The translations under genes were made by a program, and so were the position numbers. Shown here in pieces: positions 3,307 to 10,047 of a DNA stretch of 64,000 bases. The DNA is from an uncultured Paracoccaceae bacterium (lineage in GTDB: Bacteria > Pseudomonadota > Alphaproteobacteria > Rhodobacterales > Rhodobacteraceae). Under the pieces are notes generated by a model. That model did not search any database. It saw nothing but the letters and a program-made list of their open reading frames with translations, and was not told where the DNA came from. The stretch spans positions 1-64,000 of the forward strand of contig CANMKS010000003.1 in the NCBI GenBank assembly GCA_947498645.1, in the 5' to 3' direction. Positions within the stretch are counted from its first letter, which is position 1. Each line of letters opens with the position of its first letter.

Positions 3307-4137
3307 TTAGGCTGCTATTCTCACTGGTTGGTTTTTGCTGGCATAGGCCTCGTCGGGGGTCAACAAGCCGTGCGTTGAGTGGGGGCGTTCGGAGTTATAG
3401 TAATTCAGCCACTTGCCAATCCCGGCGCGCATTTCTGATCCCGTCTCAAAGGCATTTAGATACACGCATTCATATTTCAGCGACCTCCACAGCCGTTCGA
3501 TCATGCGGTTGTCGCGCCATGCGCCTTTCCCGTCCATGCTGATCTTGATCTTTGCGTCGGTCAGCATGTCAATCCACGCGCCACTGGTAAACTGGCTGCC
3601 CTGATCGCTGTTGAAGATGTCCGGCTTGCCATGTTTAGCGAGCGCTTCTTTCAAAGCCTCGACGCAAAAGTCCGCGTCCATACTGTTTGACAGCCGCCAG
3701 GCCAGCACCTTGCGGCTGTGCCAATCCATGATCGCCACAAGCTATAAGAATCCGCGCCGCATTGGGATGTAGGTAATGTCTGCGCACCAAACCTGGTTCG
3801 GGCGATCAATCACCATATTGCGCAACAGGTATGGCCAGATCTTATGCTGTGGATGCTTCTTGCTTGTGTTGGGTTCCTGGTAGATCGGCACCAGCCTCAT
3901 GAGACGCATCAGACGGCGCACACGATGGCGACCACATTGGTGGTTGTTGCGCTTCATATAACGAGCCATTTGGCGCGAACCATACCACGGGGTTTCCAAA
4001 AACTGCTTGTCTATGATCTCCATGAACCGCAGGTTCTCAGCGCTTTCGCCGACCGGCTGATAGTAAAGACGCGACCGCGACAGCTGCAACAGTTCGCACT
4101 GTTTACGAAGGCTTAACCTATGATCCCGGCTCACCAT
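3307..4137 (-). pseudogene. IS3-family transposase OrfB, interrupted by an amber stop
   Basis: The catalytic rve-type integrase part of an IS3 transposase. Its HTH_21-like N-terminus and all three catalytic motifs are present: ADITYIP (first D), NSDQGSQFTS (second D) and RMIERLW (E). The coding sequence is interrupted at about 3739-3741 by TAG between RRGFL and LVAIMDWHSR, where relatives have tyrosine; a single base change explains it. The frame is otherwise intact from 4137 to 3307. It overlaps orfA, and an A6 run near the junction (minus strand around 4137-4143) is a plausible slippage site for making the OrfAB fusion. Without amber suppression the product would lack two of three catalytic residues. 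Confidence 0.85.
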
Positions 4138-4439
4138 TTTTTGCCTCGCGTCCCGAGCAGTTGATGCGAGGCTTCGGCTAAAAAATCCCGTTCCACCACC
4201 AACTGGCCGATCTTCGAGTGCAGCTTGTCGACATCGGCGGCGCTAACCTGTTCTGGGGCCGCACCACGGCGCGTAAATGCCGTCGCCATGTTCTCCATCG
4301 CTGCGCGTTTCCAAGTCCCAATTTGCGTGGGATGCACGCCGTACTTCTTGGACAGCTCCGCCAGCGTCATCTCCTCGCGGATCGCTTCAAGCGCAACCTT
4401 GGCTTTAAACTCAGGCGAATGGTTCTTGCGTTTCTTCAT
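4131..4439 (-). CDS. IS3-family transposase OrfA
   Basis: A 102-residue helix-turn-helix protein starting MKKRKNHSPEFKAKVALEAI, the usual beginning of IS3-family OrfA (HTH_Tnp_1 domain). The segment AELSKKYGVHPTQIGTWK is the DNA-recognising helix-turn-helix, followed by a predicted coiled-coil segment KLHSKIGQLVVERDFL. It binds the terminal inverted repeats and is normally joined to OrfB by programmed frameshifting. Its stop overlaps the orfB start by 7 bp. It lies inside the IS element at 3247-4505. Confidence 0.9.
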   Translation of the reverse strand: MKKRKNHSPEFKAKVALEAIREEMTLAELSKKYGVHPTQIGTWKRAAMENMATAFTRRGAAPEQVSAADVDKLHSKIGQLVVERDFLAEASHQLLGTRGKKW

Positions 4440-4575: not shown

Positions 4576-5457
4576 ATGACTTGTCCAAATACGTCGGGTT
4601 TTCAAGCCTATCTTGACAACTATACAGTACTGCCAAGTAAACTGACGGTTTCAGGCAGCGTCGAGACCAACGGAGGTGACCATATCCCGCACCTGCGAGT
4701 GAGGGAACCACAAGGAATAAATCCGAAAATCTTGCTCTTGGAGTTGACTATAGAAAGCACAGGGTTACCCGGAACCGACGACGTTGCCTATCGCCCATTG
4801 TCATTTGAAACGCACACTGCGCCTCTGCAGTACGACAGCATCTGTATCTTCTATGGCGTGGAAAAATGCGTCGAAATGGACGTTATTGAAAGAACCGCGG
4901 TGTATGGCTCGGCTACCTATGAGGCGCGCTGGGTACAGCGCAGTAACATTATCAGATTGACCGCCAGTGGAATATTGCCTTGCTATAACTATGACGCAGA
5001 GCTTGTGCAGCGGCCAGAGCGGGTATCTCCACCACAGTGGAATTTGGTGTTTTTAACTGAGCCGGTTTGTTGGAAAGCCCTGAAACCATTCACTATCAAG
5101 ACCGAATTTCCTGGCATTGATGGACAAGAAACCGTCATGGTAATTGATGCAAGTGAAGAAAATGAAATCCCAATCTTGCCAGCATACAATGAAGCCGAGA
5201 GTATGGGGTTGTTAGCGACCGCGAGCGTGAGCGACATGTACTCCGTTCATGCACTTTCAACCGACGATGTAAAAACTAATCCAACTGGTTGTCAGATCGT
5301 TCCGTCGGATTGGCTCGTAGCGGCAATCTATACTCGAGTATTCGGGCCAGCACCCAAATCTGATTGCGATAAGTTTGTGTCTGACAAGTGCTCTGCTGCC
5401 GATAGTAACGACTTGTCCTTGCGAGGCGGCGAAATTCCTTGGCCACTGTTCAAGTAG
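4576..5457 (+). CDS. Uncharacterised 293-residue protein
   Basis: I do not recognise this protein. It has a strong ribosome binding site (AGGAGGG at 4561-4567) ahead of ATG 4576. There is no signal peptide and no membrane segment; the sequence looks beta-rich, with several cysteines (for example CIFYGVEKCVEM and ILPCYNYDAEL) and a proline-rich stretch around residue 150. Base composition is visibly more AT-rich than in the housekeeping block, and it is sandwiched between an IS3 element and an IS5 remnant, so it is probably acquired cargo. It stands alone on its strand and is followed by a perfect 34-bp palindrome that may end its transcript. Confidence 0.7.
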   Translation: MTCPNTSGFQAYLDNYTVLPSKLTVSGSVETNGGDHIPHLRVREPQGINPKILLLELTIESTGLPGTDDVAYRPLSFETHTAPLQYDSICIFYGVEKCVEMDVIERTAVYGSATYEARWVQRSNIIRLTASGILPCYNYDAELVQRPERVSPPQWNLVFLTEPVCWKALKPFTIKTEFPGIDGQETVMVIDASEENEIPILPAYNEAESMGLLATASVSDMYSVHALSTDDVKTNPTGCQIVPSDWLVAAIYTRVFGPAPKSDCDKFVSDKCSAADSNDLSLRGGEIPWPLFK

Positions 5458-5577: not shown

Positions 5578-5995
5578 TCATAACCAGAATATGATGGTTG
5601 CGGCGAGAGCGATAGCTGACAAGAAAACCTTGGGGCACCGGTCATAGCGCGTTGAGATGCGTCTCCAATCTTTGAGGCGACCGAACATTCTCTCGATGCG
5701 ATTGCGGCGTTTGTAGCGACGCTTGTCGTATTTGATGGTCTTGCTGCGTGACTTGCGACCAGGAATGCAGGGCGTGATACCCATGTCTATCAAAGCTTCT
5801 CTGAACCAATCAGCGTCATAGCCTCGATCCGCGAGCAGCCATTCAGCATTTGGCAGACTGCTCAACAAGGCCGCGGCCCCAGTATAGTCGCTGACCTGAC
5901 CGGCGGTGAGAAAGAACTGGATTGGGCGACCGCTGGTAGGTGGTAAGCACACCAATTTCCCGCCTGCCCGGTGACACCTCGCCTCACGTGTTGAC
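5578..5995 (-). pseudogene. IS5-family transposase remnant (C-terminal part)
   Basis: The minus strand encodes the C-terminal two thirds of an IS5/IS427-type DDE transposase: GRPIQFFLTAGQVSDYTGA, LLADRGYDADWFREAL, CIPGRKSRSK, RNRIERMFGRLKDWRRI and the end IALAATIIFWL. The final catalytic segment is present, but the first ORF and the beginning of this one are missing; upstream of about 5960 the frame no longer matches the family. I place the boundary approximately. No matching inverted repeat pair was found, so this is a deletion remnant rather than a mobile copy. Confidence 0.8.
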
Positions 5996-6065
5996 AATTG
6001 CGCCGGAAAGATGTGCAGATGAGTCCAAACCCTACCCCTAGAAAAGCAGCTGAGTATCAATCACG

Positions 6066-6470
6066 ATGACCACGCTATCCATCCGGTCTGACGACTATTC
6101 GGTCCAAGTCATTTCAACTGCATCGAAGCGCTTTTTTGTTCGGATCGCCGACCCTCACTTAGTCAAAGACGTAACTATTTTCAGCGATTTCCGGATTGAC
6201 GAAGGCGACGCTGGCATAGCTCTGGAAGCCCTGCAGCTACTTGCAAAACAAGCTCCGGAAATCTACCGCGCCAGGAAATGGGTCGTTTCGGATTTACTGC
6301 CTACGCCAGATCAAAGCGTTTCAGCTGAGCATCCAGAGCTGGTACGGCGTTTTGACGAGCTAAAATCACTCTTCAGGAGTAACTCCGAGGGCACTCGACG
6401 ACTGATGGAGAACGCATACATCGAGCCACGCGCAGATAAGTTTGATGGAGTCTTCCTCTTTGCAGATTAG
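6066..6470 (+). CDS. Uncharacterised 134-residue protein
   Basis: I do not recognise this protein. It begins MTTLSIRSDDYSVQVIS, has no signal peptide or membrane segment, and ends with an acidic/aromatic tail. It starts directly after the IS5 remnant, so its original promoter may have been lost. It lies about 300 bp upstream of the small membrane protein and the STING-like gene, on the same strand, but the gap makes membership of that operon uncertain. It carries none of the GS/DxD nucleotidyltransferase features expected of a CD-NTase. Confidence 0.55.
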   Translation: MTTLSIRSDDYSVQVISTASKRFFVRIADPHLVKDVTIFSDFRIDEGDAGIALEALQLLAKQAPEIYRARKWVVSDLLPTPDQSVSAEHPELVRRFDELKSLFRSNSEGTRRLMENAYIEPRADKFDGVFLFAD

Positions 6471-6770: not shown

Positions 6771-7166
6771 ATGGCCAATCTAGAAAAGCACCTCGAATTC
6801 ATTTTGTCCGCGATCTCGCGTATGGCACAAAATTCGTTCTTGGCCCGTGGCTGGTGCATTACCCTGACGACAGCACTGCTGGCCGTAGCCTCAAACACCG
6901 ACATCAAGGTTGCGTATGCGTTGGCAGGCGTTCCAATCATCGTGTTTTGGGTTGTCGATGCGTACTATCTCTCTCTGGAACGACGGTACCGACTCCTATA
7001 CGAGCAAATCCGCATGAAGCCTGTTGATGAAATAAACTATGCGATGGACATTCGGCCGTTTGCCAGAGAGCAGAGTATTTTTTCCGCGTTATTTTCCCCT
7101 CTCATCATTTTTATCTATGGCAGCCTGATCAGCCTGATCGGTTTCCTATTCTTTGTACAAGGATAG
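6771..7166 (+). CDS. Small multi-TM protein, probable membrane partner of the STING-like protein
   Basis: A 131-residue protein starting MANLEKHLEFILSAISRMA. An amphipathic N-terminal helix is followed by a hydrophobic hairpin (about residues 25-65, VAYALAGVPIIVFWVVDAYY), a short cytoplasmic segment rich in charged residues, and a C-terminal membrane segment (LIIFIYGSLISLIGFLFF). I recognise the pattern (EKHLEFI..VI.RMA.NSF..KGW) from a widespread family of small membrane proteins of unknown function. A TTG at 6705 would add 22 residues that do not fit the family. Only 3 bp separate it from the next gene, so the two are surely one operon. By analogy with 2TM effectors encoded beside nucleotide sensors it could be a membrane-disrupting or anchoring partner; that is inference. 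Confidence 0.75.
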   Translation: MANLEKHLEFILSAISRMAQNSFLARGWCITLTTALLAVASNTDIKVAYALAGVPIIVFWVVDAYYLSLERRYRLLYEQIRMKPVDEINYAMDIRPFAREQSIFSALFSPLIIFIYGSLISLIGFLFFVQG

Positions 7167-7169
7167 TCC

Positions 7170-8225
7170 ATGAGACCGTTAAAGATATTTGTGGTCGGGC
7201 CACACAACAAGAATAGATACGACGCTATCCGCAACTATGTCATGGCGTTTGCTGCGCGACAGGTGCCGCAGGTTGAAGTAGCTGTTGTAACCCCGACCGA
7301 CAATCCGGCAGCCGACCGGTTCAATGACTGGATCTTTGGTCAGATTGATACCTGCGATCTCCTGATCGCCGATCTGACTGGGTTCAACGCGAACGTCGTG
7401 TACGAAGTTGCATTTGCACATACCCTTGGAACACCTTGCCTTTATTTGCAATTTGGCCAGAGCGCCGCAGAGACACGCAAAACCGAGGACATCAAGCACT
7501 ATTTCAAGTTTAGCTTGATGAACCAGACTGATGAAGACGGCCTCTATGCATATCTCGACCCCAGCTCTCTAGAAGGTGGTCGGGTTGGTGTACTGGACGA
7601 CCACCTTACGCGCTTTTTCAGTGGGAATGCGCTTTCCGGTGAAACCATTTTGTCTGATTATTATGGCTCGTTTCCGGCTGATGCGGAGTTCATGCGGGGT
7701 CTAGCGGATGGCTACTTTCGGAATTTCCTTGGGTTCATCCTTGAAGCCAAGCCGCCCGATGAACACAAAAACATGAAGTTGCGGGTCGTGATACCGGACA
7801 CCTTCGAGGTGAGCGATGGAGAGATCAGCCGCATCAAGGAGATGAACATCGGTACCAACTATACGATCTTTCCCAACGCGGAAAATTCTATGGGGCGCAA
7901 GTTTGGTGTGACAAGGTCCGATCAACACAAAGATGATTTCTTCTTTGATATCCCGACGACCATCCTAACGGTCACATCTTGTTCAAAGTACCAAAAGATC
8001 CAAGATACGAAGTATTTCTCGGAATTAGACCGAGATGCATTGACTGATAAGTTGGCGCGGAAGTTTGTTGAGTCGATTTGGCAGCGCATCCGGGACAATC
8101 GAAGGTCGATCAAGTTTCCGACCAGTCAACTTGAATTCATTTGGTTGAGTGATCTCGTTCCTGACTGGCATCCAACTGAAGCTTTACTCAATGATGTTCC
8201 GTTTGAGAGGCCAACTGGCTTTTAG
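7170..8225 (+). CDS. Fusion of a deoxyribosyltransferase/TIR-like domain with a STING-like domain
   Basis: 351 residues in two parts. Residues 4-95 form a Rossmann-like domain with DLLIADLTGFNANVVYEV (63-80) and a following AHTLGTP, the motif of nucleoside 2-deoxyribosyltransferase-like and TIR-like NAD-cleaving domains; E79 would be the catalytic glutamate. Residues about 170-325 resemble, to my memory, the bacterial STING domain of CBASS TIR-STING proteins: a GYFRNFLGFI helix (cf. GYYNSFI), then LRVVIPDTFEV (cf. VDVVIPETLDD), then FDIPTTILTV (cf. LDIPSTLSTI). STING binds cyclic dinucleotides and switches on the effector by oligomerising. It is 3 bp downstream of the small membrane protein gene. 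No CD-NTase gene is visible nearby, which is odd for CBASS. The N-terminal call is firm; the STING call is moderate. Confidence 0.6.
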   Translation: MRPLKIFVVGPHNKNRYDAIRNYVMAFAARQVPQVEVAVVTPTDNPAADRFNDWIFGQIDTCDLLIADLTGFNANVVYEVAFAHTLGTPCLYLQFGQSAAETRKTEDIKHYFKFSLMNQTDEDGLYAYLDPSSLEGGRVGVLDDHLTRFFSGNALSGETILSDYYGSFPADAEFMRGLADGYFRNFLGFILEAKPPDEHKNMKLRVVIPDTFEVSDGEISRIKEMNIGTNYTIFPNAENSMGRKFGVTRSDQHKDDFFFDIPTTILTVTSCSKYQKIQDTKYFSELDRDALTDKLARKFVESIWQRIRDNRRSIKFPTSQLEFIWLSDLVPDWHPTEALLNDVPFERPTGF

Positions 8226-8468: not shown

Positions 8469-9209
8469 GTGTTTCCTTCCCAGTTTACCTCCGCGATCAT
8501 CGCAGTCTTTACTGCGATCATTGGTTTCTACGTAACAACTGTGATCGAAGAAATCCGATCCGGGTCCGCCGTCATTTACAGCGTGGAAAAGAAACATGGT
8601 GAAGCCGTCCTGTTTCTCAAAAATGCATCTCGTGATGGAGCCCTCCAGGATTTGCACGTAGGTATGAGCTGCGCTGATTTCAGCGAACAACGTACTTGTT
8701 TCCCAACACCACCTACCGAGCGCGAGGTTTCAATTACAAAGTTTGCCCCAGTTGCGGGCGAGGTTGCCGCACCCAACTCAACTCCATTGTCGCTGGAGTT
8801 TCGAGCAACGCTTGTCGCAGGAGCAAGTATCAAGGTAACTGTGGCCGCAAACTCAGAGAATAGCTCCGATCTGCTCTTCGTGTATTTCCCGCAGACCAAG
8901 GTCTCATCGTCCACCAACCACGACATAACACTTGTTGACGCCATCATCGGAGCGCTGCAAAGGCCCTCAACCGATGAAGAGACACCCGTCTTTTTGAGGC
9001 GTGGTAGCATTACCGCACTCTTTGTGGAGTATTACTTTTCAATAATGGCGTTAGTCATGATAGTTACATCTATCCTACTTCTGGCGTCGTTGGGTTGGTG
9101 GACTTACGACTCCATATCTCAAGCCTTCAAACCACCGGAGAAACCCGAAAGTGAACCTCAAAAGTTTGTTGTTGATCTCAGCGTTTCTGGGCGGAAGCCC
9201 AGCCTTTAG
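8469..9209 (+). CDS. Two-TM protein with an intervening beta-rich domain, unknown function
   Basis: 246 residues. One membrane segment at the N-terminus (SAIIAVFTAIIGFYVTTVI), a beta-rich region of roughly 150 residues, and one near the C-terminus (ALVMIVTSILLLASLGWW), followed by a charged tail. GGAG at 8457-8460 precedes GTG 8469 at good spacing, which decides the start. Architecture recalls TM-beta-TM sensor or effector proteins, but I recognise no named family. Its 3' end overlaps the next gene by 59 bp. It follows the STING-like gene by 243 bp on the same strand, so it may be a separate unit within the same accessory cluster. Confidence 0.65.
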   Translation: MFPSQFTSAIIAVFTAIIGFYVTTVIEEIRSGSAVIYSVEKKHGEAVLFLKNASRDGALQDLHVGMSCADFSEQRTCFPTPPTEREVSITKFAPVAGEVAAPNSTPLSLEFRATLVAGASIKVTVAANSENSSDLLFVYFPQTKVSSSTNHDITLVDAIIGALQRPSTDEETPVFLRRGSITALFVEYYFSIMALVMIVTSILLLASLGWWTYDSISQAFKPPEKPESEPQKFVVDLSVSGRKPSL

Positions 9210-10047
9210 CGACTCCATCAGAGTAACAATTGTCTTTGGAGCGTTTGAATTCCCCATCCCTGGTGGAGATGTCAAACCTTACAGAAATGGGAGGGAACTC
9301 TCTGGCATCACCCGAACCGAAATGGAAGATGGTAGCTTCGAATTTGATCTTGATGGCTGCGACGACGGGACACTATTCAAAGTAACATTAACTGGCTTTT
9401 ATACTGTCGAGGACGAGTTTCATCCTTGCGAAGCTCCCGAAATGAAAGTCGCAGCCGTGATGACGAGTTTTCAAATGGCCTCGGGAACCGTTCCTGTGAC
9501 ACCATCAGGTGCTTTCACCCTCGACTATACGTCGGTCGCCTACGCGTCATGGATTCAGGACGTTGTGGAGATTGATTCACCAACACTCACCGCAATGGGA
9601 CCTGAAGCAATTGAAAATCAGGCCAAATTGATCGCAGCGATGTCCCAGTACAACTTCGGTGAAGCTACATTCTATGCGAATGAAAATGCAGCGCTTGCAA
9701 GGCAAGGCAACTTTTCATCAACCGCTATTGGATATGCCGCATTAACCTTCGATACTGGGTTTCGGGCAATGGGTATTGATCCTGGCAAGACTGCCGTACC
9801 GCTAGTGGCACTCGATTCAAACCAGAATGGCATCCCAGTCCCCACTCTAGAAGGCATCGACGTCCTCAAAGCATACAACACTGAGTTGGTAGGTTTCTCC
9901 GACACCGATGTTTGGGGATTTGCAACCTCTTCGGCTCTTCGTGCATCAGCACAGCCAATAACTGAGCCATTGATCGAACTTGAGACTTTCGACAAGTTTT
10001 CCGGGCTTGAACTAGATGTGCCCAGCGGTATGTTTGTAGATCGGTAA
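9151..10047 (+). CDS. Secreted protein of unknown function
   Basis: 298 residues with a clear signal peptide (MNLKSLLLISAFLGGSPAFS, cleavage likely before DS) and no other membrane segment, so it is probably periplasmic or exported. No catalytic motif is recognised. The start is GTG 9151, lying inside the previous gene, with GGAG about 10 bp ahead; the long overlap with the 8469 gene implies coupled expression. I would treat the membrane protein and this secreted protein as a pair. Function unknown. Confidence 0.65.
   Translation: MNLKSLLLISAFLGGSPAFSDSIRVTIVFGAFEFPIPGGDVKPYRNGRELSGITRTEMEDGSFEFDLDGCDDGTLFKVTLTGFYTVEDEFHPCEAPEMKVAAVMTSFQMASGTVPVTPSGAFTLDYTSVAYASWIQDVVEIDSPTLTAMGPEAIENQAKLIAAMSQYNFGEATFYANENAALARQGNFSSTAIGYAALTFDTGFRAMGIDPGKTAVPLVALDSNQNGIPVPTLEGIDVLKAYNTELVGFSDTDVWGFATSSALRASAQPITEPLIELETFDKFSGLELDVPSGMFVDR

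Follow-up and report, generated by a model that had tools for sequence, protein, structure and literature searches.

The window analysed here is a stretch of 64,000 nucleotides from an uncultured Paracoccaceae bacterium (contig CANMKS010000003.1), and its forward strand carries three neighbouring genes that may form a defence unit built around a bacterial STING protein: gene X (6066-6470, 134 aa), from an unnamed family accompanying STING genes, a gene for a small predicted membrane protein of the PDC-M50A family (6771-7166, 131 aa from its ATG), and a gene for a fusion protein of 351 aa (7170-8225), called NDT-STING below, in which a nucleoside deoxyribosyltransferase (NDT)-like domain precedes a STING domain. 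Bacterial STING is known from cyclic oligonucleotide-based antiphage signalling systems (CBASS), where its ligand is made by a neighbouring cGAS/DncV-like nucleotidyltransferase (CD-NTase). What is observed here is a set of family matches, predicted folds, conserved residues and gene pairings, in a genome without a SMODS match. We read the three genes as a putative anti-phage unit that is based on STING and has no cyclase of its own, and give this reading, together with the mechanism proposed below, slightly less than an even chance, the immune role being inferred from sequence.

An earlier note on this DNA had described the membrane and fusion genes as a tight two-gene unit, encoding a multi-transmembrane (TM) protein and an NDT-like/STING-like fusion with no visible CD-NTase, and had proposed a STING-based unit with a membrane subunit. 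This description holds, and the proposal is supported by profile, structure and neighbourhood tests alike: both open reading frames (ORFs) are present, with three bases (7167-7169) between the stop of the first and the start of the second, a structural match to STING was found, and homologues are paired with the membrane gene in five of five close-family loci. The note had overlooked X, which belongs with the pair. The STING domain itself (residues 172-329, 7683-8156) is matched by PF20300 (prok_STING) over residues 176-302, with 41.7 bits against a cut-off of 27.1; the segments GYFRNFLGFI, LRVVIPDTFEV and FDIPTTILTV keep their order in the alignment to bacterial STING (PDB 6wt4), and in the AlphaFold2 model of the fusion protein (mean predicted local distance difference test score 82.4) a STING fold is predicted in the C-terminal part.

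In the N-terminal domain (residues 1-150, 7170-7619), the structure test finds a predicted fold of the nucleoside deoxyribosyltransferase/deoxyribohydrolase (DrHyd) superfamily, whose members are described as NADases or ADP-ribosyl cyclases of conflict systems (PMC9503650). D68 and E79 are invariant in the 29 rows of the family, their pairing with NDT D62/E88 and DNPH1 D80 being a motif reading made without an alignment. The PADLOC scan gave a weak TIR effector match for this protein (E 0.024), and no match to PDLC04688 (PDC-M50B, a ThsB-like TIR). The fusion is not new as such, since STING-deoxyribohydrolase fusions are mentioned in PMC10732462, which cites earlier work.

The membrane protein matches PADLOC PDLC04686 (PDC-M50A) with an E-value of 3.4e-38 and has three hydrophobic stretches, at about residues 22-40 (marginal, with a mean of 1.46), 43-64 and 103-130; a longer reading of its ORF, of 153 aa, would start from TTG 6705. 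It is likely a membrane effector. Its pairing with NDT-STING is kept in all five close-family loci, namely the window, Ruegeria (L001), Gemmobacter (L002), Heliomarina (L003) and an IMG/VR contig (L012), and in each of them the M50A gene ends at most 3 bases from the NDT-STING start, or overlaps it. More generally, NDT-STING has a membrane or membrane-like protein encoded next to it in all 10 loci examined: M50A in these five, TrkA_N in L041 and L073, DUF4231 in L075, 8xMP in L043 and a hydrophobic ORF in L044, the membrane label in L041, L073 and L044 being a reading of the sequence.

Outside STING loci, the M50A family keeps different company. A survey of 194 relatives drawn and 398 genomes of the phylum placed it in 12 genomes besides that of the window, and in 10 of these a ThsB-type TIR and/or PDC-M50B gene adjoins it (with a weak TIR score of 37 bits in L053, and in L054 a strong TIR one gene off with a weak one in between), the remaining two, L010 and L011 (weak M50A match), having no such neighbour. 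X was not found at these 12 loci, of which about 1.5 kb or less was covered per side. M50A being mostly a neighbour of ThsB-type TIR genes, the STING fusion thus occupies the usual place of a Thoeris-type TIR. PDC systems are candidates, with validation pending for most (PMC12988326), and the literature search found no paper on PDC-M50. One genome from the same family (L056/L057) has an M50A gene in two pieces beside a ThsB-like TIR (PDC-M50B, E 4.5e-61).

Gene X lies upstream of the membrane gene, at a distance of 300 bases. Its profile (A4) has one match at E <= 0.001 in the 3.38-Mb window genome, at 6072-6461 (E 6.6e-5; scoring covered 10 of the 19 first-look candidates), and hhalign gives a Prob of 93.7. 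By BLASTP, it is clearly homologous to the X proteins of two other NDT-STING loci, L073 (36% over 132 aa, E 8.5e-25) and L075 (34%, E 1.3e-23), and the profile search gathered 54 proteins, the queries themselves counted. Neither the window X nor the X proteins of L001-L003 have a Pfam or PADLOC match, and the literature search, which reached few subscription papers, recognised no STING partner resembling X. Despite the adjacent insertion sequence (IS) remnant, the window X looks complete because its start aligns with that of the L075 protein. The M50A-linked kin L001, L002, L003 and L012 carry another X type, in a gene of 132-140 aa downstream of NDT-STING, and no X-type gene follows position 8225 in the window; the window X is nearest to the type linked with TrkA- and DUF4231-associated NDT-STINGs, so that by X type versus membrane partner the locus looks mixed. 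In L042 (7978-11722), X lies one ORF from an NDT-like protein (by reading, with no Pfam match) and a DUF4231/SLATT membrane protein, in what is possibly a STING-free relative of the system.

Which dinucleotide might the STING domain bind? In ElSTING, cyclic di-GMP (c-di-GMP) is contacted by R230, F232 and F169 (PMC12421889), R230 lying in GRSF and F169 in GYYENF, and the NDT-STING family mostly shows GR-x-L/F (242-245) and GY-x-RNF (181-186). R243 is an arginine in 28 of the 29 rows, position 186 a phenylalanine in 24 (tyrosine in three, leucine in two), and D260 is invariant (29/29). C-di-GMP is a plausible ligand because the ElSTING contact positions are mostly kept (R243 and F186, position 245 less so), the register at R243 being a motif reading at a point where the hidden Markov model alignment to ElSTING is offset.

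As for its source, a CD-NTase is missing from the operon and, as judged by the SMODS and AGS_C models, from the rest of the genome too. Eight window proteins scanned (two being readings of one gene) gave no Pfam nucleotidyltransferase match, and the window genome (99.99% complete) gave no SMODS match (control positive in 3 of 14) and none to AGS_C; the search with a DncV-like model was equally empty but is uninformative, since its controls gave no signal. Plasmid W01 and viral record G1119 likewise lack a SMODS match. GGDEF proteins are present in 8 of the 8 rows searched (7 distinct genomes), and the window genome has six of them, all chromosomal.

In the mechanism that we propose, a cyclic dinucleotide, probably c-di-GMP, supplied by the six GGDEF proteins or by an unlinked source, would close the STING dimer, and closed STING would switch on the N-terminal NDT enzyme domain. 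This domain would act on NAD+ or a nucleotide, perhaps yielding an ADP-ribose-type signal like Thoeris ThsB, and the membrane protein, once triggered, would damage or depolarise the cell membrane as end effector. X would set off or restrain the STING protein, replacing a dedicated CD-NTase. Between NDT-STING and M50A we favour an ADP-ribose-type intermediate, because M50A elsewhere neighbours ThsB-type TIRs and because the signals with which Thoeris ThsB proteins activate the effector are, in several types, isomers of cyclic ADP-ribose (PMC11204291, PMC13232231). We further suggest, with less confidence and as a rather doubtful extension, that STING and X may together be the heart of a distinct class of nucleotide-based bacterial immunity, in which X, a compact protein whose fold would have no clear solved relative, replaces the CD-NTase as trigger or gate, and membrane effectors (PDC-M50A, TrkA-type, DUF4231/SLATT-type, or a fused TM segment) are exchangeable.

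Several observations weigh against the unit as proposed. PF05014 (Nuc_deoxyrib_tr) reaches 18 bits on the N-terminal part, below its cut-off of 28.8, and the PF20300 cut-off is exceeded in four of six relatives scanned, with P0003 (26.9 bits) and P0030 (24.0) falling under it, as do L041 (24.7) and L043 (20.3). Position 245, in the place of ElSTING F232, is a phenylalanine in just 8 of 29 rows (leucine in 15, glutamine in four), and the ligand may therefore differ from c-di-GMP, which as an ordinary ligand would risk constant activation in GGDEF-bearing hosts. X stands upstream of the membrane gene in the window, unlike in L001-L003 and L012, where it is downstream of STING; it is not universal, having not been found in the 13 kb of L043 or the 6-kb contig of L044, and three genomes have it without STING: G256, G1063 and, by a weak match (E 5e-4), G1087. 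Finally, a SMODS match is present, on other contigs in each case, in 3 of 12 distinct STING or X genomes (G211, G987 and G1063), a count in which G484 and G892 are apparently one genome, and G497 and G342 are 89% and 62% complete.

NDT-STING could instead be the whole effector, like TIR-STING in CBASS, forming filaments and destroying NAD+ or nucleotides alone, with the membrane protein doing no more than anchor or tune it. The top whole-length Foldseek matches of the fusion are the TIR-STING filament structures 7un8 and 9lmq, its catalytic-type residues are invariant, and c-di-GMP-activated ElSTING degrades NAD+ (PMC12421889), but the presence of a membrane or membrane-like gene at every locus examined argues against this explanation, and we consider it unlikely. 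More improbable is an inverted logic, in which a standing c-di-GMP pool would hold the STING protein off until a phage draining the pool releases it: it would suit a genome with six GGDEF proteins yet no SMODS cyclase, and GGDEF in every row searched, and it has a precedent in Panoptes (PMC12657218), although Panoptes has its own synthase (same source), and both SfSTING (PMC9402430) and ElSTING (PMC12421889) are dinucleotide-activated.

The surroundings of the unit bear on the two last alternatives. A tRNA-Phe gene (2570-2644) lies about 3.4 kb ahead of X, and between them are an IS3-type element (3307-4439) whose second gene is split and, on the reverse strand, an IS5-type remnant whose transposase looks truncated (5578-6060), both named from their proteins. 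A housekeeping or stress regulator responding to c-di-GMP, for which GGDEF proteins as the sole recognised dinucleotide source could speak, is difficult to reconcile with these remnants and the tRNA, with varying X and membrane partners, with the standing of PDC-M50A as a defence-candidate family, and with a patchy occurrence (of 394 family genomes, two, G000 and G484, have matches that span the full profile); we hold such a non-immune role to be slightly less probable still. The suggestion of the earlier note that a CBASS operon lost its CD-NTase through the adjacent IS elements is very improbable and largely refuted, despite the remnants upstream of X, because L001, L002 and L003 (genomes) and L012 (viral record) carry the same genes without a SMODS match, and the X and membrane gene reading frames are open and conserved.

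Further features of these loci were recorded. Three ORFs flanking the unit, 4576-5457 (293 aa), 8469-9209 (246 aa) and 9151-10047 (298 aa), have no Pfam or NCBIfam match at E <= 1, and L001 10792-10950 resembles the IS stretch of the window. A tRNA is close to STING or X genes in four of nine stretches scanned (window, L003, L042 and L043), which fits insertion hot spots. L012 (IMGVR_UViG_2835780464_000002) is a 45.7-kb viral-classed contig with the three-gene set, of the other X type, near its end, and the set may therefore be prophage-borne or lie in a host flank. Upstream of a Roseivivax STING gene, L036 (6531-7076) encodes a MASE1-like membrane protein (22.9 bits, under the cut-off). MASE1 occurs in sensor proteins, including diguanylate cyclases. 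The divergent NDT-STING of L043 (5728-7235, 20.3 bits), without X, has a tRNA-Lys gene close by and a 148-aa membrane protein upstream (Pfam 8xMP, 70.4 bits). Another divergent NDT-STING, in L044 (1147-3588, 35.9 bits), lies at a contig edge and is followed by the hydrophobic ORF and by a protein with a RyR domain match near the cut-off (26.7 versus 27.4 bits); in phages, proteins with a RyR domain target signals of the ADP-ribose type (PMC13232231).

Compared with known systems, the unit shares with CBASS TIR-STING (Cap12; SfSTING, ElSTING) a C-terminal STING, a Rossmann-type nucleotide-processing domain at the N-terminus and the lid arginine, but an NDT/DNPH1 fold replaces TIR, no adjacent CD-NTase is recognised, and a separate membrane protein and X are present. 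The STING-deoxyribohydrolase fusions have the same domain pairing, judged from one mention (PMC10732462), which is silent on a membrane partner and X. PADLOC PDC-M50 (M50A plus M50B) has a membrane protein that is clearly of the same family, whereas its M50B is a ThsB-like TIR, in the place of which NDT-STING stands here. Thoeris (ThsB/ThsA) is linked through the TIRs that usually neighbour this membrane family, yet no ThsB or ThsA match was found among five window proteins scanned, and a STING domain is present instead. Panoptes (OptS/OptE) combines a dinucleotide sensor with a membrane effector, as the unit would, but its sensor is S-2TM-beta and not STING.

If the unit were confirmed, bacterial STING defence would have more forms than the known one. 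The unit would join two lines of nucleotide immunity, because a membrane protein that elsewhere neighbours Thoeris-type TIRs is paired here with STING. A conserved STING unit without a recognised linked cyclase, in hosts bearing GGDEF proteins, also raises a question: how is STING activated, and how are false alarms avoided? X is a concrete candidate for the part that governs this.
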